Source: Campylobacteraceae bacterium (GTDB lineage: Bacteria; Campylobacterota; Campylobacteria; Campylobacterales; Sulfurovaceae). Taken from it: 43,089 nt of DNA. The notes below the pieces were generated by a model. That model did not search any database. It saw only the letters and a program-made list of their open reading frames with translations, and was not told the DNA's origin. Each line of letters opens with the position of its first letter. Position 1 is the stretch's first letter. This document shows positions 1 through 43,089 of this stretch, one piece after another. The position numbers and the translations under genes are program-made. Where the stretch lies: positions 1 to 43,089 of the forward strand of contig JALWKO010000051.1 of assembly GCA_027081405.1 (NCBI GenBank), given 5' to 3'.

Positions 1-1506
1 GTCCGGATGGGTCAGCTCGTACTCCATTTCGCTGTAGCGTTCGTAGCGCCGGGTCTTGTCCTTCTCCACTGAGCGCATGACGACCGCTTCGAGCCAGGCG
101 GGGGTGAGGGGATTGAGGCGGCGCAGTGGCGTTGTGGTGCGGAAAGTGGGGGTTTGGAAGGGTTCGATCTCCCCGTAGGGGAGCCTGCGGCTCAGCGCCT
201 CGTAGAGGGTGACGCCGATGGCGAAGATCTCGGTCGCTTCGCCGATGCTCTCTCCCGTGAAGCGCTCCGGGGCCAGATAGCTCGGCGTCCCGGCCCGGGA
301 GGCGATGGAGAAGATCTCCACGATGGAACCGAAATCGATCAGTTTGTAGACCCGTTTGCCGTGGCGGCGAAGGACGAGGACGTTTTCGGGTTTGATGTCG
401 CCGTGGACCAGGTCGCGGCGGAGAAGAAACTGGCTCGCGTGCAGCAGAAATTTCCCCAGATTGACCGCATCTTCGACGGGCAGCGGCTTGCGTGCGATCT
501 CCTCCTTGAGGGTGGGGGCGTCGATATATTCCATCACGTAGTAGCGGCAGCTCCGTTTGGCGGGGATCACCGCCTTGGGGAAAAATCCCGCTTTGAGGCG
601 GGAGGCGTTCCATGCCTCTTTGACGAAGAGATCGAGATAGGTTTCGTCGTGAATCGCCTCAAGGGGCGGGAACTTGAGGACGTAGCGCACCCCTTTTTTC
701 TCCGCCAGCCAGGTCCGTCCGTTTTGAATCAGGGGACGCAGGAGCCTGTAGCCGTCGATCGTTTCGCCCTTTTTGAGCGTTTCGGGGATCGGCAGGTCGA
801 TCTTTTTGAGGCTTTGGCGTTTGGATTCCCCCAGGATTTCGACCACGACGGCCGTGGTGTCGTCGGGGAGGTCGTCGTCGACCTTTTTGCTGGCGGCCTT
901 GACCAGGGCCACCGCTCCCGCGGGGAGCAGTCGGGCGATCTCCTCTTCGCTCAGCACCGCCTCCAGTCCGTCGCTGGATAGCAGCAGCCGGTCGCCGATA
1001 CGCAGATTGTTTTCGAAAAAGTAGATCTCCACCTCTTCACTCAGGCCGATCGCCTGGGTGAGGACGTGCTCCATCCCCTTCTCGTGGCTGACGTGGGGGA
1101 TGCTGAGTTGCAGCAGATCTCCATCCCGCAGCAGGAAAATGGGCGAATCGCCTACGTTGGCGCCGTAGAGGCGGTTCCCTTCGACGACGGCGACGCTGAG
1201 GGTCGTGAGGTATTCGGGGCGCTCGTACTCTTCGATCCCCTCCCGGTAGAGGATGGCGTTGATGTTGGCGATGAAGTGGCGTAGGGACTTTTCGATGCTC
1301 CAGCTACGGGGGCGGGCTTTGAAGCTGTCGATGAGGTAGTTGACCGCCCGGCGGGAAGCCTTGGCCCCCGCGGCGGCGCTGCCGACCCCGTCGCCGAGCA
1401 CCGCGATGCAGAGCTCGTCCGCCACCCGCACCGCTGCGAAATCCCCGCTGAGGGGTTCGTGCCCTTTGGCCAGGCCGAAGGTGGAGGTTTTGAAGAGGGA
1501 AGACAT
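1..1506 (-). CDS. bifunctional PP2C-type phosphatase / Ser-Thr protein kinase (partial, C-terminus outside window)
   Basis: Reading from ATG at 1506 gives 502 open codons to the window edge. Residues 1-225 look like a PP2C phosphatase: metal-site motifs LGDGVG (Asp39), NVGDSP (Asp120), SSDGLE (Asp179) and PDDTT (Asp216). Residues 250-500 look like a Hanks kinase: VLK Lys278, Glu297, catalytic loop HGDIKPEN (Asp371, Asn376), DFG at 391-393 and APE at 412-414. The catalytic loop has Gly in place of the usual Arg (non-RD), and the glycine-rich loop is weak. Kinase/phosphatase fusions of this architecture are known next to NarK-type transporters and nitrite reductase genes, as here, so a regulatory role in nitrate assimilation is inferred; the substrate is unknown. 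The start is followed at once by a typical MSSLFKT N-terminus. Confidence 0.88.
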   Translation of the reverse strand, partial: MSSLFKTSTFGLAKGHEPLSGDFAAVRVADELCIAVLGDGVGSAAAGAKASRRAVNYLIDSFKARPRSWSIEKSLRHFIANINAILYREGIEEYERPEYLTTLSVAVVEGNRLYGANVGDSPIFLLRDGDLLQLSIPHVSHEKGMEHVLTQAIGLSEEVEIYFFENNLRIGDRLLLSSDGLEAVLSEEEIARLLPAGAVALVKAASKKVDDDLPDDTTAVVVEILGESKRQSLKKIDLPIPETLKKGETIDGYRLLRPLIQNGRTWLAEKKGVRYVLKFPPLEAIHDETYLDLFVKEAWNASRLKAGFFPKAVIPAKRSCRYYVMEYIDAPTLKEEIARKPLPVEDAVNLGKFLLHASQFLLRRDLVHGDIKPENVLVLRRHGKRVYKLIDFGSIVEIFSIASRAGTPSYLAPERFTGESIGEATEIFAIGVTLYEALSRRLPYGEIEPFQTPTFRTTTPLRRLNPLTPAWLEAVVMRSVEKDKTRRYERYSEMEYELTHPD

Positions 1507-1520
1507 GGTTGCTCTTTGTC

Positions 1521-1611
1521 TATTGGTGTATTAGTGTATTGGTATATTGGGTAGGGGAGAAGGAAGCTCTACGTTCACTCCCAATACACCAATAACCAAT
1601 ATACCAATAAC
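1521..1611. repeat. inverted arrays of degenerate 8-nt TATTGGTR repeats
   Basis: Four near-identical octads (tattggtg, tattagtg, tattggta, tattggg) at 1521-1551 face their reverse complements (ccaatacacc, aataacc, aatatacc, aataac) at 1581-1611, about 30 nt apart. They lie between the kinase start and the narK end. The same CCAATA-type octads recur at 5162-5193 and 9772-9801. Confidence 0.75.
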
Positions 1612-1615
1612 AAGA

Positions 1616-1641
1616 GCGGATTTGACAAAAGTCAAATCCGC
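1616..1641 (-). terminator. hairpin overlapping the narK stop codon
   Basis: An 11-bp perfect inverted repeat, GCGGATTTGAC / GTCAAATCCGC with a 4-nt loop. The narK stop codon (1632-1634) lies inside one arm. A U-tract is missing, so termination strength is uncertain. Confidence 0.5.
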
Positions 1642-2906
1642 CCTCCCGCACTCACCCCCCAGGTGGTGCGCCAGCGGGTTTTGACCAGGCTGATGCCGAT
1701 GATCGCCACGGCGACGACGGCGGCGAAGAGGAAAAATCCCGCGGCGTATCCCCCAAAGGCGCTTTTGGACCATCCCAGCGTCTTGATGAGTGCCGTTCCC
1801 CCCAGGCCGCCGGCGCAGCCGACGATGCCGGTCATGATCCCCATATCCCGGCCGAAGCGCTGGGGGACCAACTGGAAGACCGCGCCGTTGGCCATCCCCA
1901 GGTTGGCCATGATCAAAAAGAGGATCAGGATCGCCAGGTAGAAGTGGTGCACGAAGGCGTTGAGAACGGCCAGGGCCGCCGTGGCACCGAAGAAGATGTA
2001 GAGGCTCTTGACCCCGCCCAGTTTGTCGGCGATACCGCCGCCTACGGGTCGCAGTACCGCCCCGGCGAAAATACACAGCGCTCCGAAGTAGCCGGCGACC
2101 ACTTTGACATTGGGCTCGTTGAGATATTCCAGCCCGAATTGGCTCATGTCGACCTGATAGGTGTTCATCAGGTAGACCTTCATGTAGTTGGCGAAGCCCA
2201 CGAAGCCTCCGAAGCTGACGGCGTAGAAGAGGCTGAACCACCAGGTATCTTTGTCTTTGAGCAACTTGAGATAATCGCCGAGTCTTTTGGGATTGGGCTT
2301 GTAGACATCGGCGGGGGCATCCTTGGCCATCAGGGCATAGATGATGAAGATAAAAGTCGAAAGGATCCCGCCGACCAGGAAAACCGCCTGCCATCCCCAA
2401 TACTCCGCGATCTTGGGGGCGAAAAGGAAGTCGAGAACGACACCGATGTTTCCCGCTCCGGCCAGTCCCAGCACCAACCCTTGCAGCCTGGGGGGATACC
2501 ACTGTCCCGCTTGGGGGAGTGCTACGGCGAAGGAGGCGCCGGCGAAACCGAGGCCGAAGGCCACCGCGAGCAGTTCGTGATAAGTGATCTCTTCACCGCG
2601 CAGATAGCCGTAAAAAAGGGAAGCGATGACGATCGCTTGGGAAATCAGCGCCGTCTTTTTGGCCCCGATCTTGTCGACGCCGAAGCCCAGCAGGATCCGC
2701 AGGATCGCGCCCGAAAGGATGGGGATCGCCAGTAGGGTCGCTTTCTGGTTGGGATCGAGCCGGAAACCGTGGGCCGCCAGCGACTGGCTGATCTCCGTGG
2801 CCAGAGGTCCCAGCATGGTCCAGACCATGAAGCTGAAATCGAAGTAGAGAAAGGCCGCGATGAGGGTCGGAAGGTGCCCCGCGGTCTTGAGTTCACCGAG
2901 TTTCAT
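1632..2906 (-). CDS. narK: nitrate/nitrite transporter, MFS NNP family (NarK/NasA type)
   Basis: A 424-residue protein with about twelve hydrophobic segments. The N-terminus (FSFMVWTMLGPLA) and two Gly-rich nitrate-signature stretches (AGAGNIG in the middle, GCAGGLGG late) are typical of the NNP branch of the major facilitator superfamily, which moves nitrate in or nitrite out across the inner membrane. The start is set by GAGGAG about 8 nt upstream of ATG 2906. It lies between the kinase/phosphatase gene (same strand) and divergent nirA, so import for assimilation is the likely role. Single-unit NarK length is normal; there is no fusion or truncation. Confidence 0.92.
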   Translation of the reverse strand: MKLGELKTAGHLPTLIAAFLYFDFSFMVWTMLGPLATEISQSLAAHGFRLDPNQKATLLAIPILSGAILRILLGFGVDKIGAKKTALISQAIVIASLFYGYLRGEEITYHELLAVAFGLGFAGASFAVALPQAGQWYPPRLQGLVLGLAGAGNIGVVLDFLFAPKIAEYWGWQAVFLVGGILSTFIFIIYALMAKDAPADVYKPNPKRLGDYLKLLKDKDTWWFSLFYAVSFGGFVGFANYMKVYLMNTYQVDMSQFGLEYLNEPNVKVVAGYFGALCIFAGAVLRPVGGGIADKLGGVKSLYIFFGATAALAVLNAFVHHFYLAILILFLIMANLGMANGAVFQLVPQRFGRDMGIMTGIVGCAGGLGGTALIKTLGWSKSAFGGYAAGFFLFAAVVAVAIIGISLVKTRWRTTWGVSAGGRI

Positions 2907-3045
2907 GCGATGTGCTCCTCGAATTGTGATGCCGCAATTATAGGTCAGATAATGTGCTTTTAATTGATGAATTTTTAATCAAAATAGTGATAACATTTTG
3001 CATATACTTCTCCAAAACATTCATTTTTTTCCTAAAGGTTTTGGA
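2907..3045. promoter_or_regulatory. divergent narK / nirA promoter region
   Basis: This AT-rich 139-nt gap separates divergent narK and nirA. A possible -10 for nirA is TATACT at 3003-3008. An imperfect operator-like palindrome, AATTG-N8-CAATT, lies at 2922-2939 just upstream of the narK ribosome site. No clear NtcA or NarL site was seen. Confidence 0.35.
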
Positions 3046-4944
3046 ATGAGACTCGAAGCGATCAGTGCCCGACACACGAAAATCAACAAAATCGAAAAGC
3101 TCAAAGCGACCCGGAGTTACAAAGAGGCCTGGGAAGCGCTGCAGCGCTACGCCCGGGAAGGGTATGACGCGATTCCCAAAGAGGACAAGGATTTTTTCCT
3201 CAAATGTTTTGGGATCTTCGACCGTCCGGCCACGCCGGGGCGGTTCATGATGCGGATCCGGATCCCGGGGGGACGGCTCGAGAGCGCTCAGGCCGAAGCG
3301 CTGGGGGAAATGGCCCGGGAGTTCGGGGAGGACTATATGGATCTGACGACCCGGGCCCAGGTGCAGCTGCGATATCTCAAGATCGAGGATATTCCCACGA
3401 TCATCGATCGGCTGGAGGGGGTGGGGATCACCAGCTGGCAGACCGGGGTGGACAATTTCCGAAACATCGTCACCGATCCCCTCGACGGTCTGGCCTATGA
3501 CAATCTGATCGAAACGGCTCCGCTGATCGATGCGATGCAATCACTCTGGCTCAAAAAGGAGGAGTGGATCGCCGCCATCCCCCGCAAATTCAACACCGCC
3601 ATAGGTGGATCGATGAGCAACCGCTGCAACCTCTTCGCCCACGATTGCTGTTTCGCTCTGGCGGTCCGGGACGGGGAATACGGCTTCAATGTCTACCTGG
3701 GCGGCAAGGTAGGGGCGATCGCCCAGAGTGCGGATGTTTTCGTCACCGAGGAGGATCTGCTGGCTTTCTACGAAGCGTTGATCCGCACCTACAAAAAGTT
3801 CGGCTTTCGGGACAGTCGCAACAAAAACCGTCTGCACTATCTCATCCAGGAGGCGGGGATGCGGACCGTGATCGAGGCGGTGGAGGAGATCGCCGGGCGG
3901 GAGTTCCGCAGGGCGGGGGAGACCCTGGTCAAAACCCCCCGAACCGAAGAGAAAGAGGGGCGGATCCGCCTGCGCGACGGGAGCTGGGCGCTGCATATGG
4001 TGGTCCCCTCGGGGATCTTCAGCGGGATGGCGATGATCCAAGCGGCCCAGACGGCGCGTGCGTACGGAAACGGACTGCTCAACATCTCCACGACCCAGAA
4101 CCTCTACATCCTCGGTGTCCCCACGGAGAAGATCGACGCGGCACTGAGTGCCAAACCCTACGATCGCTACGCCAACCGCTCCACCCCCTATTTCAATCAA
4201 CTGGTCGCCTGTGCCGGGGTGGACCTGTGCCCTTTCGGGGTCATCCCCAACAAGAAAGACGCCATCGAAATGGCACAGTACCTGGGGGATGCGGTTCCTT
4301 TGCCTGAGGACGCGACGATCCGGATGCACTGGTCGGCCTGCGTCAAAGGGTGCGGCGTGCACGAACTGGGGGACATCGGCTTCGTCGGCTGCAAGGTCAA
4401 AGAAAACGGAGAGACCGTCTACGGAGTGCACATCCAGCTGGGGGGCAAATCGACCGCGAGCCAGGAGGAGGCCTACGACATCCTGCGCAGCGTGCCATTG
4501 AGTCGGGCGCGGTTTTATGTGGCTCAGCTGGCACAGGCCTATCGGGATCTGCGACGGGAACGGGAGAGTTTCGAGCGGTTCGAGAGCCGGGTATTGCGGC
4601 GCTACTCCAAAGGGGCGATCGGATTCATCCTCCGATGGAACGTCGATATCGCCGGAAAACTGGGGGCGGGGGAACTCCGCTTCGCCAAAGAGTGGCCCGC
4701 CACCGAAGAGCGCAACGAGATCTTCCTGCTGGGACTCGAGATCTACAAGGCCCTCTCCGGGGAAAACGCCTATCAGGGGACCTACGCCTACAACCCGATC
4801 GAAAAGACCCCGCCCGTACCTCTAGCGAAACGGGTTCCCGCGGTGGGCAAAGAGCTCAGCGACGTGGTGATGAAGATGATCGCCCCGTCGGAAAAACGGT
4901 ACGAAGTCTTTACCGAAGTGCTGTCCGATCTGGGGATCAAATGA
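3046..4944 (+). CDS. nirA: ferredoxin-type assimilatory nitrite reductase (siroheme/4Fe-4S)
   Basis: A 632-residue protein of the nitrite/sulfite reductase family, which reduces nitrite to ammonium with six electrons, usually from ferredoxin. The siroheme-[4Fe-4S] ligands are visible as Cys389-x5-Cys395 and Cys432-x3-Cys436, and the substrate-side motif TTRAQVQLR is present. The start at 3046 (MRLEAISARHTK) is preferred over the open frame upstream because AAAGG precedes it and the upstream residues lack family character. About 130 residues follow the last conserved cofactor region, somewhat longer than many NirA proteins. Divergent narK and the kinase/phosphatase gene make an assimilation cluster. 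A sulfite reductase role is less likely, given NarK next door. Confidence 0.88.
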   Translation: MRLEAISARHTKINKIEKLKATRSYKEAWEALQRYAREGYDAIPKEDKDFFLKCFGIFDRPATPGRFMMRIRIPGGRLESAQAEALGEMAREFGEDYMDLTTRAQVQLRYLKIEDIPTIIDRLEGVGITSWQTGVDNFRNIVTDPLDGLAYDNLIETAPLIDAMQSLWLKKEEWIAAIPRKFNTAIGGSMSNRCNLFAHDCCFALAVRDGEYGFNVYLGGKVGAIAQSADVFVTEEDLLAFYEALIRTYKKFGFRDSRNKNRLHYLIQEAGMRTVIEAVEEIAGREFRRAGETLVKTPRTEEKEGRIRLRDGSWALHMVVPSGIFSGMAMIQAAQTARAYGNGLLNISTTQNLYILGVPTEKIDAALSAKPYDRYANRSTPYFNQLVACAGVDLCPFGVIPNKKDAIEMAQYLGDAVPLPEDATIRMHWSACVKGCGVHELGDIGFVGCKVKENGETVYGVHIQLGGKSTASQEEAYDILRSVPLSRARFYVAQLAQAYRDLRRERESFERFESRVLRRYSKGAIGFILRWNVDIAGKLGAGELRFAKEWPATEERNEIFLLGLEIYKALSGENAYQGTYAYNPIEKTPPVPLAKRVPAVGKELSDVVMKMIAPSEKRYEVFTEVLSDLGIK

Positions 4945-11381: not shown

Positions 11382-11464
11382 GAGCAGAAAGGCCAAACCC
11401 GTCGCGAGGCGGGGACGGAAAGCCATGGGTCTCCCATCGTGGAGATCGCCAGGTTGCCGATGCG
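11382..11464 (+). promoter_or_regulatory. cyclic-di-GMP-I (GEMM) riboswitch aptamer
   Basis: The conserved GEMM-I order is present: AGGCCAAACC (11390-11399), a hairpin CCCGTC-GCGA-GGCGGG with GNRA loop (11398-11413), GGGACGGAAAGCC (11412-11424), a second arm GTCTC/GAGAT (11429-11446), then GGTTGCCGATG (11452-11462). Relative to the Vibrio Vc2 aptamer as I recall it, the two-base helix flanking AAACC is CC/GG in place of GC/GC, so pairing is conserved by a double change. The base aligned with Vc2 G20, which separates c-di-GMP from cGAMP binders, is G, favouring c-di-GMP. Confidence 0.88.
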
Positions 11465-11580: not shown

Positions 11581-12354
11581 ATGATGAGAGTATTGGTAAC
11601 GGTGTTGGCGACAATTGTGACACTGAGTGTCCAAAGTGTGGCATTCGAGATCAAAAATCTGGCGCAGGCCGTCAACGAAGCGGGACGTCAAAGGATGCTC
11701 ACCCAACGGATGCTCAAAGACTACGCGATGATCGGGATGGGGAATCAGTTCGGGAACCCCGTTCAGGATCTCAATCGAACAATACAGACCTTTGAAGAGC
11801 ATCTCAAAGCGTTGCGTTCCTTTGCCACCGACCCTGAAACGGTAAAAAGTCTCGAAGCGCAGCGAAATCTCTGGGATCAGATCCGTCCCAAACTCTTACA
11901 GAAACCGACCAAAAAAGAGGCGCAAACTCTCCAGAAGGAGCTGGACAAGCTTCTCAAAGCGGCAGATTTGACGACACGGCTTTTTGCCAAACAAACGGGG
12001 AAAAAGTCGGGGAAACTCATCAACATCTCCGGTCGGCAACGGATGCTCTCCCAGCGGATGGCGAATCTGTATATGCTGAAGGCCTGGGGGGTCGAAGACC
12101 CCCAATTCAAGGACAAGCTTCAAGCTGCGATCCAACTTTTCGGCGATTCCCTCGATACGCTTATGAAATCGGATCTCAATACTCCGGAAATCGATAAATT
12201 GCTTCACAGAGTCAAAAACAATTTCATGTTTTTTCAGATTATGAGCCGATCGTCGAATCGTTTTATTCCGTCGTTGATTTACGAAAAATCCAACGAGATT
12301 CTAAAAGACATGAACACCGTGACAGGCTTGTACGCTAAGCAAAAAGCCCGGTGA
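11581..12354 (+). CDS. secreted PilJ/NarX-like type IV pili MCP-N-domain protein (paralogue 1)
   Basis: A 257-residue protein with a Sec signal peptide (residues 1-21, ending SVA) and no other membrane segment, so periplasmic. It carries two copies of a helix motif: AGRQRMLTQRM (34-44) and SGRQRMLSQRM (150-160). The motif is that of the PilJ N-terminal / NarX sensor domain; NarX binds nitrate with the Arg of AGSLRMQSYR, which aligns with Arg38 and Arg154. The rest is predicted helical. AAGGAG precedes two adjacent ATG codons; the second (11584) has better spacing. It is the first gene of the c-di-GMP-riboswitch operon. A ligand-binding or accessory sensor role is inferred; no enzyme motif was seen. 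Confidence 0.85.
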   Translation: MMRVLVTVLATIVTLSVQSVAFEIKNLAQAVNEAGRQRMLTQRMLKDYAMIGMGNQFGNPVQDLNRTIQTFEEHLKALRSFATDPETVKSLEAQRNLWDQIRPKLLQKPTKKEAQTLQKELDKLLKAADLTTRLFAKQTGKKSGKLINISGRQRMLSQRMANLYMLKAWGVEDPQFKDKLQAAIQLFGDSLDTLMKSDLNTPEIDKLLHRVKNNFMFFQIMSRSSNRFIPSLIYEKSNEILKDMNTVTGLYAKQKAR

Positions 12355-12394
12355 TTGGATACAATAATCCCACGAATAGGCAAAGGAGAAAGAA

Positions 12395-13210
12395 ATGCGA
12401 AGAACCCGTATCTTGGGAGTGTTTGCCGTGGCGGCTCTCTTGGTGACGAATATTCCGGTGTCCGCGGAGCAACCGCACAATCCCGTGAAGGTCAATGAAT
12501 TGGTCAAAAAAGACGCGATTCGACTGATCGATATCGCCGGGAGACAGCGGATGCTTTCGCAGCGGATCGCCAAAGACTATCTCTATCTTGGGAAGCATAT
12601 CGCTACCGACAAGGCGCGTAAAGAGCTCAAAGCTTCCCTGGAAGAGTTTCGCGCCAATCTGGCCAAACTCGAAGAGATGATCAACGATCCGGAGATCAAA
12701 AATCTTCTGGCCTTTGTCAAACTGAGCTACAACGAACTTCTCGATACGATCAAAAAGCCTTTTGATATCAACAATGCCCAATTGGTGCTCGATTTGAGTG
12801 AATCGATGCTGGAGGGTAGCCAATACATTGTCGACAGTCTCAAGAAAAAAGCCAATGTCAAAGAATCGAAGATCGTGGCGACAGCAGGGAAGGAGCGGAT
12901 GCTTTCCCAACGGATCGCAAAATATTATCTTGCCTATCAAGCGGGGATCAAAGACAAAAACACCGTCGATCAGATGCGTGCGGCGGTCAAGGAATTTTCC
13001 GAAAAGCTCAAAACGTTGATGAACAATCCCGATAATACCGCCACGATCAACCAAAAACTGGCTCAAGTGGATAAATTGTGGAAAATTGTTTATAAATTCT
13101 ACCTCAATATCGAAAAAGGGGGATTGCCGTTTATCGTCTATACGACGACCAATGACATTACGCAGAAAATGGATGAAATTACGAAACTGTACATCAAGCG
13201 TTACAAATAA
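12395..13210 (+). CDS. secreted PilJ/NarX-like protein (paralogue 2)
   Basis: A 271-residue protein with a signal peptide (about residues 1-24, ending VSA) and a helical mature part. The duplicated P-box-like motif appears as AGRQRMLSQRI (48-58) and AGKERMLSQRI (164-174), each followed by KDYLYL or KYYLAY. This is strongly similar in plan to the upstream gene and likely arose by tandem duplication. AAAGGAG precedes the ATG. The 40-nt gap contains TACAAT (12360-12365), a possible internal promoter that would escape the riboswitch. Periplasmic location is inferred. The ligand is unknown; nitrate or nitrite is a guess from the NarX resemblance. Confidence 0.85.
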   Translation: MRRTRILGVFAVAALLVTNIPVSAEQPHNPVKVNELVKKDAIRLIDIAGRQRMLSQRIAKDYLYLGKHIATDKARKELKASLEEFRANLAKLEEMINDPEIKNLLAFVKLSYNELLDTIKKPFDINNAQLVLDLSESMLEGSQYIVDSLKKKANVKESKIVATAGKERMLSQRIAKYYLAYQAGIKDKNTVDQMRAAVKEFSEKLKTLMNNPDNTATINQKLAQVDKLWKIVYKFYLNIEKGGLPFIVYTTTNDITQKMDEITKLYIKRYK

Positions 13211-13222
13211 GAAGGACCGTCC

Positions 13223-13987
13223 ATGAAAAAAACACTCTTCGTTCTTTTCGTCGTAGTGTATTCGCTTGTTTCAACGACTGCCGACGCGGCGACGCGTGCG
13301 GAGGTCAATATCCTGGAAGCGACCGAAAACATCCGTTTCATCAGTCAGCGACTGACAAAAAACTACCTCTATCTCTTTGCCAATCCGTTAAAAATCGAGA
13401 TCAAAAAGCAACTTCGCTTAGATCTGAACGAACTGGTGGACAATATTCGTTCAATTTCCCTGAGTACCAACGATGAAGACACCAAAAATATTTTGGAGTT
13501 TCTTACCTACAGCAAAAACCAGATCGAAGCGTTGATTTCCAAAAAACCGAGTAAAGAAAACGCCGCGTTGATGCTTGATTACAGCGAAACCCTTCTAGAA
13601 GGGGCCAATTCCATCGCCAAAGCACATCAATATACCTTTACCCCCAGTGAAAAAATGCTCATTTTGAGTAAAAAGCTCAATTTCCTCGTTGAACGGGCGG
13701 CGAAATATTATATGGCTTTGGGGATCGGACTCGGGACCGATATCAATCACCAACAAATGAACGAGGCGATCCGGAATTTCGATGCGGATCTCAAAACGTT
13801 GGAGGCGTACGAGTATCCGGTAAAGTTGCAGAAAAAACGGGATCAACTTCTCCGGTTCTGGAAGGTGACAAAAGGGTTTTTCCCCCGTTTGGATAAGGTC
13901 TTCGCTTCCAACATCATGTGGCTTTCGACCGACAAACTCGAGCGTCTGACCGAAAACTTCGTTATCTACCATCGTAAGCATCAGTAA
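13223..13987 (+). CDS. secreted PilJ-like protein, divergent (paralogue 3)
   Basis: A 254-residue protein with a signal peptide (about 1-22, ending ADA). It shares the size and helical plan of the two genes before it, and keeps one recognisable motif, ATENIRFISQRL (33-44), where the Gly and the first Arg are lost but the Arg aligned with the NarX ligand-binding Arg remains. The second motif (near residue 145, EKMLILSKKL) is eroded. A 12-nt gap separates it from the previous gene, and it has a purine-rich GAAGGA ribosome site. The divergence suggests a different ligand or a structural partner role; both are inference. Confidence 0.8.
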   Translation: MKKTLFVLFVVVYSLVSTTADAATRAEVNILEATENIRFISQRLTKNYLYLFANPLKIEIKKQLRLDLNELVDNIRSISLSTNDEDTKNILEFLTYSKNQIEALISKKPSKENAALMLDYSETLLEGANSIAKAHQYTFTPSEKMLILSKKLNFLVERAAKYYMALGIGLGTDINHQQMNEAIRNFDADLKTLEAYEYPVKLQKKRDQLLRFWKVTKGFFPRLDKVFASNIMWLSTDKLERLTENFVIYHRKHQ

Positions 13988-13997
13988 GGAGTAACGG

Positions 13998-16900
13998 ATG
14001 AAAAAAACGATTCAAAAATTTCTCTTTCTCCTCCTACTGATTTTCGTGCTTGCGGCGGCGGGAGTCCTGGGATGGTATGCCTACAAAGCGTATGGTAAAT
14101 ACCGCTATGACCAGCAGGTGATGCAAAAGGTGTCGGTGATCCAGGATGTCAGCGACCTGATGCAGCTTTTGGGTGATGAGCGGATGCTCAGCGTCCGATT
14201 TTTGGCTGCTGGAAAACGAAACAGCCTCGATACGCTCAAAAATGCTCGTTCGCAAGTTGATTCCATGCTCAAAAAACTCGCCGGTGAGTTACAAAGCTTT
14301 CCCGACGTTCGAGCCAACGTGGCACTTGTCCACGGGGTACAGCAAAACCTCAAATCGATTCGAACCCGCGTCGATGCCATGAGCGTGGAATATCGCGATC
14401 TTTTGGTCGACGGTTTTCAGAAACAAGTCTTTGTTCCCATTCTCAATGTCTATCGGAGTATCGCTTCCCATCTGAACGTTCCCAAGCTCAATGAAGCGAG
14501 TATGTATGGATCCCGTTTGGCGGATCTCTATGCCAATGATGAGCTGGAACAGGATTTCGTCGGCTATCTGCTCGGTTTGAACAAAGCGATGTCCGCGGAA
14601 GATATGAAAATCTGGGATCGGGTCCTTTCGCAAGACGCGCTTCCCGATTTTTCTAAGATCGCTGATGTTGCGCTCCGGCAAAAAGTGGCCAAGATCCTCC
14701 ATGGGGAAGATTTCATCCAGATGCTCAACGACGAACGGGAAAATGTGATTTTCGGGATCGACGACGGGCATTACCCCGTCGATCAGAACCACTGGTTCAC
14801 CCGGACTCAAAAACGCCTGTCCCGTCTCGCGCGTTCGGCTGACACTATTCACGCACAGGCCAAAGGCTATATCGGTGAAAAGGTTTCAAACGACCGCAAC
14901 CGGGCGATTCAGTTTGCCGCCGCGTCGCTTGTCTTTTTGGTCCTTTTCGTCATTTTGGCGATTATCTATCACAACGTCCAAAAAGAGGCCAAACTCCTCG
15001 ACGAAACCCTCAAAAACATCGAGCTCGAACTCGATCCCCAAAAACAGCGCCAACTTCAGCGGATCGTAGAGCGCAGAGACCTTGCGGCGATCTACCGCTT
15101 CATGGCTGAGAGCATCAAGGAAGCCAACGTCGCCAAAGACCTTTTCCTGGCCAATATGTCCCACGAAATCCGTACGCCCCTCAACGGAATCGTCGGATTT
15201 ACGCAGCTGCTCAAAAACACCCCCCTCACTCCCGACCAGGAGGAGTTCGTTTCGGTGATCGAAAGCAGTTCGGAGAACCTCCTTTCGATCGTCAACGACA
15301 TCCTCGATCTCTCCAAGATCAATGCCGACAAGGTGGAACTGGAGGAGATCCCCTTCAACGCCATCGAGAAATTCGAAGACGCAGTGGAATCTTACGGAGC
15401 CAAGGCCGCTCAAAAGAATATCGAGTTTTCGGTATTCGTCGATCCTTCCCTCCCCAAGACTCTGGTGGGGGATCCCACAAAAATCTCCCAGGTTTTGGTC
15501 AACTTGATCAGCAACGCGATCAAATTTACCAGCAGCTACGGTGCTGTGGATGTGATCGTGGAGAAAAAAGAAGAGACCGAGAGTGCCGCCACCGTCTATT
15601 TCGCCGTGCGGGATACCGGGATCGGAATCAGCCCGGAGCAAAAAGAGAAAATTTTCGAAGCCTTTGCACAAGCCGATGTCAGTACGAGTAGGAAATACGG
15701 CGGGACGGGTCTGGGACTGGCGATTTCGAGCAAATTGGTCGAGCGGATGGGCGGGCATCTCGATATCGAGAGTGAAGTGGGCAAAGGGTCGACGTTCTTT
15801 TTCACACTTACGCTGCCAAAAGGAGAGGATCAGGAGCGCCAACTCCCCGACCTGAGCGGATTGCGTACGGCGATGCTCTTGCCCGAGAAAGCCAATATCC
15901 GCCAAAGTGACAAGAATCTGGAAAAATACGTCACCTATTGCGGTGCGGAATATGAGATCCACCGTTACGAAGACGTGTTTGTCCATCCGGCGGACAAGAT
16001 TGCCGACGTCTTTTTCCTCGACCATGCCTATTGTCGTCGGGAAGGGGAATTGGAGCGATTCCTCAACCTCGATGCCAAAATCGTCCTCATCACCACCGGG
16101 CATTTGAAAAAAGAAGCAGAAGAAGTGGTCGATCGGGTGGCAAAAATCATCTACAAACCGGTCAATTTCACCAAAACCCTCCGTGCGATGGAACGGGTCA
16201 AGGATTTACCGCGTCACGCAGCCGCATCCGGAACTGCAGAGAACGAAAACGTAGTGGAAAAATTCGAAGATCTTCGTATTCTCGTCGCCGAAGACAACCC
16301 TATCAACCAAAAATTGATCCGTACGACGCTGGAGCAGTTTGGAGCCGACGTGACTCTGGCGTCCAATGGACAGGAAGCGTTCGATCTGCGCAAACAAAAC
16401 GACTATGACCTGATTTTCATGGATATTCAGATGCCGGTACTCAACGGGATCGACGCCACCAAAGAGATTCTCCATTACGAGCAGATCAACCATCTCAAAC
16501 ATATTCCCATCATCGCTCTGACGGCCAACGCTCTGGCAGGGGATCGAGAGAAATATATGGCAGCGGGAATGGACAATTACATTCCCAAGCCGATCAATAT
16601 CGAGGAACTCCGTGCGATCATTCAGATGTATCATCCCAAGGTGCGGATGATCCCCAAGGAAGAGGCACGAAACGGAGAAGCTCCGGTGGAAGAAACCCAT
16701 GACGAGCCTTCTTCGCAACAGCATCCTTTACCCCAGTCTCAAGGCGAAGGGGTCGAGGTGCGATATGTCCAAGCTCCCGAAGTGTCTGCCGAAACTCCCC
16801 AGAAGCCGGAAGATTACCGAAAGGGTAGCTGGATCCTCTATGTCCGATCTCCTCTGATGGCCAGCTTGTATCGGAAAATCTTGCAACAATTGGGGATCGA

Positions 16901-17147
16901 AACGGTCCAGACGGTTCAGTCCGAGGAAGAACTGATCTCCTTGCTCGATCAAGGAAATGTGGAGTATGCACTGTTGGACGGCGCGATTCTGGGTGGGGAC
17001 GAATGCATTTTGATCGAAAGTATGAAAGAAGAGGGGATTCGCCCCTTTGTCCTCGTTTCTACGGGAGAAAAAGGTGATCACGCCTGTGCCGAAACGGTGG
17101 CTGTGGACCGTTTCGCACACGAAATCAAAAAACATCTCTCCACATAA
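13998..17147 (+). CDS. hybrid sensor histidine kinase with NIT-like periplasmic domain
   Basis: 1049 residues. TM1 at about 8-27; periplasmic helical domain about 40-300 starting with [17 protein letters not shown], typical of nitrate/nitrite-sensing (NIT) domains and echoing the ERMLSQR motif of the three upstream proteins; TM2 about 306-326. Then HisKA with His389 in [12 protein letters not shown], an HATPase domain (N-box [23 protein letters not shown]), a degenerate receiver-like segment (about 615-745), a true receiver with Asp809 in [11 protein letters not shown], and a C-terminal pseudo-receiver after a Pro/Gln-rich linker. AAGGAG precedes the ATG. It is the last gene of the riboswitch operon. 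No response regulator is adjacent, so the phosphoryl acceptor is unknown. Confidence 0.9.
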
Positions 17148-42084: not shown

Positions 42085-42348
42085 ATGAAAAAACGATTTA
42101 CCCAGGAGCAGATCGTTGCGATCTTGCAAGAGGCACAGCGTGCCGATACCCAGCGAGAGGTGATTCGCAAATACAATATCAGTGAACAGACCTTCTACAA
42201 GTGGAAGCGGACCTACGGGGGAATGAGCGTCTCGGAGGTCAAACGGCTCAAAGCCCTGGAAAAGGAAAACGCCAAACTCAAAAAGCTGTTAGCCGAGCAG
42301 ATGCTGATCAACGAAGCACTCAAGGAGATTACGGAAAAAAAGTGGTGA
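42085..42348 (+). CDS. IS3-family transposase OrfA
   Basis: An 87-residue helix-turn-helix protein (FTQEQIVAILQEAQ, ISEQTFYKWKRTYGGM) with a C-terminal leucine-zipper-like helix (LKALEKENAKLKKLLAEQML). It binds IS ends and is usually fused to OrfB by -1 frameshifting. GGAGG precedes ATG 42085. The stop lies 3 nt after a GAAAAAAAG run that can serve as slippery site. Confidence 0.93.
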   Translation: MKKRFTQEQIVAILQEAQRADTQREVIRKYNISEQTFYKWKRTYGGMSVSEVKRLKALEKENAKLKKLLAEQMLINEALKEITEKKW

Positions 42349-43089
42349 CGCCTGCTGCGAAGAAAGAGGCGGTGCGCATGATGATGCACCGTGGTATCTC
42401 CCAGCGGCAGGCGTGCCGTGTGCTTGGGGTAAATCGATCCCTGCTTGCCTATACCCCGAAGCAGCCCGTCAAAGACAAAGCACTGATGGAGTTGGTTAAA
42501 GCCCTGAGTGAAGCATATCCGCGCTTTGGCTACAGGCGTATCGGTGCGATACTGGCCTGGCAACAGAAGGAGCCGATCAACGCCAAACGGGTCTATCGGA
42601 TCTGGAGGATGCTCAATCTGCAATTACCCAGGCGCAGACCCAAAAAGAAACGACCGGGCAGTGCCCCCATCACTCCGATCAGTACCCATGCAAACCATGT
42701 CTGGAGTTACGATTTCGTCAGTGACCGCACGGCAGACGGAAGAAAGCTCAAGATCCTGGCGGTGGTGGACGAATATACAAGAGAGTGTTTGGCGCTTGAA
42801 GTGGCTTCCTCGATTCGATCAGACCATGTAATCGATACCCTTGGCAGGCTCATGAGCCTTTACGGCAAGCCCGCCTTTATCCGCTCGGACAACGGACCGG
42901 AGTTTACGGCCAAGGCGGTGATCAAATGGCTCACAAGCCATCGCATCGGTCCGGCATTTATCGAACCGGGATCTCCCTGGCAAAACGGCTACATCGAAAG
43001 CTTCAACGGAAAATTCAGAGATGAATGTCTGAGCAGAGAATGGTTCGCAAGCAAAAAAGAGGCCCAGGTCATCATCGAACAGTGGCGGC
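42342..43089 (+). CDS. IS3-family transposase OrfB, DDE integrase (partial, 3' end outside window)
   Basis: Open from GTG 42342 to the window edge (249 codons), in the -1 frame relative to orfA. An HTH_21-like segment (SEAYPRFGYRRIGAIL) is followed by the rve integrase core: first Asp in VWSYDFVSD, second in RSDNGPEF, Glu in NGYIESFNGKFRDECL. All three DDE residues are present, so the visible part looks intact. The frame joins orfA cleanly by a -1 slip on A-AAA-AAG (42336-42342), giving an OrfAB fusion starting EKKVVTPAAKK. Confidence 0.92.
   Translation, partial: MVTPAAKKEAVRMMMHRGISQRQACRVLGVNRSLLAYTPKQPVKDKALMELVKALSEAYPRFGYRRIGAILAWQQKEPINAKRVYRIWRMLNLQLPRRRPKKKRPGSAPITPISTHANHVWSYDFVSDRTADGRKLKILAVVDEYTRECLALEVASSIRSDHVIDTLGRLMSLYGKPAFIRSDNGPEFTAKAVIKWLTSHRIGPAFIEPGSPWQNGYIESFNGKFRDECLSREWFASKKEAQVIIEQWR

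Follow-up and report, generated by a model that had tools for sequence, protein, structure and literature searches.

Secreted tandem-PilJ proteins encoded with a NIT-domain hybrid kinase: a conserved cassette and candidate nitrate sensor of Campylobacterota

The window analyzed here is a stretch of 43,089 nucleotides from a Campylobacteraceae bacterium (assembly GCA_027081405.1, contig JALWKO010000051.1, positions 1 to 43,089). It contains an operon on the + strand in which three genes for small secreted proteins (positions 11581-13987) are preceded by a riboswitch of the cyclic di-GMP (c-di-GMP)-I type and followed by the gene of a hybrid histidine kinase with a NIT sensor domain. We propose, with a probability of about 0.6, that the operon encodes a two-component sensor of nitrate (or possibly nitrite) that works with accessory proteins, its secreted receptors acting through the NIT kinase. 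Its pieces are known, and their combination is new: a nitrate motif is carried by free proteins next to a kinase of the same fold. An earlier, sequence-only reading had described the three genes and overlooked the co-operonic kinase and riboswitch, so that the more interesting part of the locus lies just outside 11581-13987. A PubMed Central search of titles and abstract openings, with subscription papers mostly outside it, returned no paper about soluble tandem-PilJ proteins or about this cassette.

The sequence-only reading had proposed three tandem, secreted and membrane-free paralogues, and the open reading frames (ORFs) agreed with it exactly. Gene 1 (type A, 11581-12354, 257 amino acids [aa]) and gene 2 (type B, 12395-13210, 271 aa) encode secreted tandem-PilJ proteins, and gene 3 (type C, 13223-13987, 254 aa) encodes a secreted degenerate paralogue; gaps of 40 and 12 bp separate them. 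Each protein starts with a hydrophobic signal segment (maximum 19-residue hydropathy, 1.87 to 2.12). Because the hydropathy never exceeds 0.80 beyond residue 30, there is no further membrane helix, and the NarX/NarQ-type membrane helices that would flank a sensor domain were not seen in the three proteins. The PilJ profile PF13675 (gathering cut-off, 26.6 bits) matched gene 1 at 87.3 bits (E 9.5e-25) and gene 2 at 71.9 bits (E 5.8e-20), each in two stretches and well above chance level. The profile check proposed earlier thus succeeded for genes 1 and 2 and failed for gene 3, which scored 13.9 bits (E 0.056) and whose paralogy rests on its whole-length similarity to gene 2.

Soluble versions of this sensor domain had been regarded as unusual, which our scan of species genomes contradicts. 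Relatives were encoded by 309 of 592 candidate stretches, and the best 80 of the 309 were retained as loci, in which tandem-PilJ proteins came from Campylobacterota, Gamma- and Betaproteobacteria and Bacteroidota. All but 4 of the 163 matching ORFs were shorter than 400 aa, and the start sequences of the 4 longer ones mark them as artefacts of ORF calling. Tandem-PilJ proteins in free form are thus widespread. An alignment, A3, was made of 95 of these ORFs (200 to 340 aa, redundancy above 72% removed). Seven of its paralogues, in L038 (7459-8277, own genome, contig C27), L051, L108, L110, L122, L129 and L133, have signal sequences resembling those of the twin-arginine translocation (Tat) pathway, which suggests that some relatives may be exported in folded form.

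The motif of these proteins had been aligned with the nitrate-contact P-box of NarX, A-G-x-x-R-M-x-S-x-R, and PF13675, a profile match to the chemoreceptor McpN (PA2788, PDB 6gcv) and structural matches bear out this assignment to the PilJ/NarX-type sensor domains. According to the McpN report (PMC6381276), a single nitrate sits on the dimer axis of McpN in contact with G58, A59, R61 and M62 of both subunits, and an N-box, [IVL][ND]xAGxQRML[ST]Q, was defined by its authors to predict nitrate binding. This N-box is matched in full by copy 1 of gene 1 (VNEAGRQRMLTQ, 11671-11706, residues 31-42 in helix 1, with G35 and R38) and, by reading, by copy 1 of gene 2 (IDIAGRQRMLSQ, 12527-12562). Copy 2 of gene 1 (INISGRQRMLSQ, 12019-12054, residues 147-158 in helix 5 [142-168], with G151 and R154) departs from the strict pattern at one position, Ala to Ser, and copy 2 of gene 2 (VATAGKERMLSQ, 12875-12910) at two. 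G-x-x-R is retained in every copy, in agreement with the two copies per gene counted earlier. In gene 3, box 1 (LEATENIRFISQ, 13313-13348) has Glu in place of the contact Gly and retains the central Arg, and the motif of copy 2 is lost.

McpN was the best PDB profile match of the family (E 2.1e-9), and R38 of gene 1 faces its nitrate-binding R61 in the alignment; the family profile was required for significance, the gene 1 sequence by itself giving just E 0.18. G-x-x-R was present in both copies of 89 of the 95 A3 proteins, and both copies were strict N-boxes in 25; since the patterns of the genome scan included the N-box, the conservation of copy 1 in scan loci is partly circular.

Two four-helix bundles per protein had been predicted, and the AlphaFold2 model of gene 1 (95 relatives; mean predicted local distance difference test [pLDDT], 94.3; predicted template modeling score [pTM], 0.89) has this fold and no other, with eight helices past the signal peptide. 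The top PDB match by Foldseek was NasR (4akk; template modeling score, 0.64 over the query), and none of the Foldseek PDB matches reached E 0.001. With VIA-align, gene 1 (model residues 23-257) matched the NasR NIT domain end to end (Z 19.0 over 229 residues), and McpN (16.2), PilJ (15.6), NarQ (14.8) and NarX (13.0) each matched one half. The NasR match stands clear, because the unrelated helical bundles of talin and vinculin reach just Z ~12. For the sensor of the adjacent kinase (pLDDT 94.2), NasR scored Z 26.3 over 255 residues and the runner-up 10.4. Gene 1 and the kinase sensor thus have a common NIT-type double bundle, although their sequence-level families differ, PilJ for genes 1 and 2 and NIT for the kinase. 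Genes 2 and 3 probably share the fold of gene 1, to judge from their sequences. The motif copies of gene 1 fall in helices 1 and 5, as do the proposed nitrate-pocket residues of NasR (PMC7496416). The tandem protein could thus form, within one chain and from two G-x-x-R copies, the symmetric nitrate site that McpN builds from two subunits.

The hybrid kinase (13998-17147, 1049 aa) starts 10 bp past gene 3 and consists of a transmembrane segment (near residues 8-26), the NIT domain (PF08376), a second transmembrane segment (near 306-324), HisKA (PF00512), HATPase (PF02518) and a receiver (PF00072). The NIT domain (residues 53-286, 14154-14855), delimited by the Pfam range, is periplasmic. It matched PF08376 at 43.8 bits (E 5.1e-11; cut-off, 24.9), and 13 of 15 kinases scanned had such a match. 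The pocket residues of NasR helix 5 are E175 and R176 (PMC7496416). A Glu occurs in both helix 1 and helix 5 of all 15 aligned kinases; the Arg after it is found in 13 of the 15 in helix 1 and in 9 of the 15 in helix 5, where the window kinase has Gln. Such residues would be in keeping with a kinase dependent on the free secreted proteins.

The cassette is conserved. The order A-B-C-kinase was found in 35 loci, 32 of them distinct (L057, L065 and L077 duplicate L043, L055 and L044), with A or A-B repeated in some. A type-C gene immediately precedes the kinase in all 35, and in all of them Glu replaces the contact Gly of copy 1; three residues further on, Arg is present in 31 (Lys in L059 and L064, Ala in L060, Gln in L070). 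Six kinase-adjacent C-like genes that the tree placed outside the C clade (L059, L060, L064, L075, L080, L082) were classed by their box letters. In the 60 relatives, type C was matched at 100 bits or more in 32 cases, of which 30 had a kinase NIT match at most 2 kb downstream, the pairing being made by eye. The exceptions were followed by a kinase fragment at a contig end (G027, contig C256) and, in G036 (contig C123, L140), by a 1079-aa ORF that looks like a kinase from its start. C and kinase occurred without adjacent A or B in G020, G029 and G004, in the last at the same site adjoining an aminotransferase gene, and tandem A-B loci lacked C and kinase within the locus in L078, L079 and L081 (Sedimenticola-type genomes) and L083. 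C is thus the closest companion of the kinase, which would leave A and B as the carriers of the ligand motif. Gene B of L041 and L042 escaped a simple ORF caller, which also picked a different ORF instead of the PilJ gene at several G+C-rich loci.

The sequence-only reading had assumed that gene 3 keeps one motif copy and has eroded the other. Both are degenerate, in a state conserved at all 35 kinase loci, and the dN/dS ratio of the close pair L043/L044 was 0.045 for type C, next to 0.051 for type A and 0.048 for type B. That value, the conserved Glu and the retention of C with the kinase where A and B are missing rule out a decaying copy.

Two minimal C-kinase cassettes (L138, 5821-9594; L139, 537-4343) lie beside genes resembling, by eye, the sox thiosulfate-oxidation genes. 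The source genome also has a second, diverged cassette on contig C71 (L037, 3-4000), with three paralogues whose motifs are degenerate and a kinase cut at the contig end; it perhaps serves another ligand.

Upstream of gene 1, positions 11383-11462 match the c-di-GMP-I-GGC riboswitch aptamer (RF03167; 66.2 bits, gathering threshold 59, E 1.3e-13), which ends 118 nucleotides before the gene. Gene A is likewise preceded by matches of its clan in L040-L044, L046, L052 and L054. A covariance model of ten sequences, with both-sided changes in 9 of 21 pairs supporting the helices, added L066 and, in L047, a weak trace (17.6 bits) at the corresponding position; the remaining cassette loci of the 59 sources to which it was applied gave nothing at E ≤1. 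The leader is of ordinary stability (z -0.88), its centroid fold having a hairpin around the ribosome-binding site, and terminators and promoters near the operon showed no excess over shuffled sequences. Across whole genomes, the riboswitch marks PilJ genes twice in G021 (contigs C43 and C81), the C81 copy preceding a diverged cassette. Three further copies occur in the source genome, one of them before a 1442-aa SdrD_B-repeat protein and another before a 1766-aa cadherin/Ig-type protein. The class mostly senses c-di-GMP, rare variants sensing cyclic AMP-GMP (PMC7266159).

Two side observations concern these riboswitch-marked sites. Upstream of the 1766-aa protein, a PilJ paralogue is split into two ORFs (L039, 6570-7405, own genome, contig C41). 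In G021, which has no NapA match, the gene A of contig C43 (43354-44046, L146) has in-frame stops downstream of its riboswitch.

We infer the following mechanism. Genes 1 and 2 would be soluble periplasmic receptors for nitrate or nitrite, their two PilJ bundles making a built-in pseudo-dimer as in the NasR NIT domain, with one anion held between the G-x-x-R motifs of helices 1 and 5 as McpN holds nitrate on its dimer axis. The gene 3 product would dock on the kinase and couple A and B to it, kinase coupling being its most likely role, and the kinase, through its own NIT periplasmic domain, would convert the result into phosphotransfer. The riboswitch, presumably responding to a cyclic dinucleotide, would set the supply of the cassette, its regulon elsewhere in the genome taking in giant surface proteins. 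A further elaboration is doubtful: the invariant Glu of C may permanently mimic the anion-bound state, and nitrate-loaded A and B may compete with C for the kinase or take its place there, all four proteins of the sensor repeating one fold. Kinase output would then be set by how many secreted receptors are loaded relative to those that are not, rather than by a pocket in the membrane protein, and the riboswitch would match the supply of receptors to whether the cell is attached or free-living.

Known systems resemble the cassette in part. Like periplasmic-partner two-component systems, the conserved cassette encodes soluble extracytoplasmic proteins together with a kinase; in TorT-TorS, XylFII-LytS and QseG-QseE, a separate extracytoplasmic protein likewise works with a sensor kinase, and their sensor bundles were among the fold matches of gene 1. 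The partner proteins of those three systems have other folds. Here, partner and kinase sensor are of one fold, and there are three partners. NarX and NarQ share the P-box and the sensor-domain fold with genes 1 and 2, but in them the sensor domain lies inside the kinase between membrane helices, whereas here the neighboring kinase is of the hybrid type and senses through a NIT domain. McpN shares the PilJ four-helix bundle and an N-box with G-x-x-R, the latter matched in full by the first copies of genes 1 and 2, but it is a membrane chemoreceptor whose domain dimerizes, whereas genes 1 and 2 hold two copies in one free chain. NasR has two four-helix bundles per chain, as in gene 1, but combines them with an RNA-binding ANTAR domain in a one-component protein, and the two sequences are 8% identical when aligned by structure. 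The periplasmic region of Pseudomonas aeruginosa PilJ (7zjr, 8wdf) also has tandem PilJ domains, in a membrane chemoreceptor whose N-box is not conserved.

Among the 59 distant loci L078-L136, 12 (L095, L107, L111, L112, L116, L122, L125, L127 and L133-L136) have the tandem-PilJ gene placed between nirB and nasA, in most cases with NarK and a phosphatase-kinase fusion in the vicinity. We estimate the chance that a 17-kb stretch includes a given gene of a 5-Mb genome at well under 1%, and this placement ties the tandem-PilJ family to nitrate. NapA is encoded on contig C78 of the source genome and was matched in 47 of the 60 relatives, in 22 of the 24 genomes whose gene-A match reached 150 bits against 25 of the 36 others, a weak association confounded by kinship. 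The window itself carries phosphatase-kinase, NarK and NirA-like nitrite reductase genes at 1-4944, some 6.6 kb before gene 1. Those for NarK and nitrite reductase (1632-4944) were set aside as functional proof, none being found near the cassette in L037-L056.

Several observations weigh against nitrate or against the proposed architecture. The fold by itself does not give the ligand, because neither P. aeruginosa PilJ nor the NIT-domain chemoreceptor PA4520 bound nitrate when tested by the McpN authors (PMC6381276); the PA4520 result also leaves the ligand specificity of NIT domains poorly understood. The NIT model PF08376 had no match in genes 1 to 3 up to E 10. Nas-type genes were absent near the cassette in all 20 loci L037-L056, and the linkage in the window is thus not conserved. 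Two cassette-bearing genomes had no NapA match, and 7 of the 24 genomes with a strong gene-A match had no NarK match. In L045, L048, L049, L050, L051, L055 and L056, no riboswitch was found ahead of gene A.

It may be that the same architecture and mechanism serve another anion or small molecule, nitrate being merely the ancestral ligand. Motifs vary strongly in paralogous cassettes (L037 in the own genome; L094), copy 2 is often not a strict N-box, and the two minimal cassettes stand beside sox-like genes. This is nevertheless unlikely, as copy 1 of both genes 1 and 2 fits the pattern given as predicting nitrate binding in PMC6381276, and distant relatives lie within nitrate assimilation operons. 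Those operons can also be read differently: solitary tandem-PilJ genes with no kinase nearby are common, and with NapA in the source genome, the secreted proteins might bind nitrate or nitrite for buffering, or for delivery to a periplasmic reductase or uptake system, the kinase being merely co-expressed. We consider this quite unlikely, since in Campylobacterota these genes keep a fixed order and spacing relative to the kinase, and type C, which has no binding motif, is retained with it where A and B are absent. That genes 1 to 3 have lost ligand binding and encode helical periplasmic proteins with a role in structure or adhesion is highly improbable given G-x-x-R in both copies of nearly all A3 proteins and strong purifying selection, even though four-helix bundles are generic and giant surface proteins of the same genome share the riboswitch family.

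If a nitrate sensor is indeed encoded here, its build would differ from that of NarX, NarQ, McpN and NasR, in which nitrate sensing is known to reside in a single kind of chain: free periplasmic proteins would carry the motif, next to a kinase that shares their fold. The group carrying the cassette consists of Sulfurovum/Nitratifractor-type Campylobacterota, mostly with a periplasmic nitrate reductase gene. The tandem arrangement would provide the symmetric nitrate site within one chain, which would suit structural work and biosensor design, and through the riboswitch a connection of nitrate perception with a cyclic dinucleotide becomes testable.

Some minor observations concern neighboring genes. 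At 1-1506 of the window, a PP2C-phosphatase/protein-kinase fusion adjoins the NarK and nitrite reductase genes, and a related fusion occurs in betaproteobacterial nas clusters (L107, L111, L122, L125, L127, L133-L136); it is a candidate regulator of nitrate assimilation. In L118 (7094-7882), as in other Ralstonia/Cupriavidus loci, the gene just upstream of the tandem-PilJ gene encodes another N-box-type protein, of ~262 aa, and a plasmid search returned just two Cupriavidus replicons, with no annotation at the match. Finally, a transposase gene (rve, HTH_21) at 42201-43088 runs off the contig end and probably belongs to an insertion sequence that broke the assembly.

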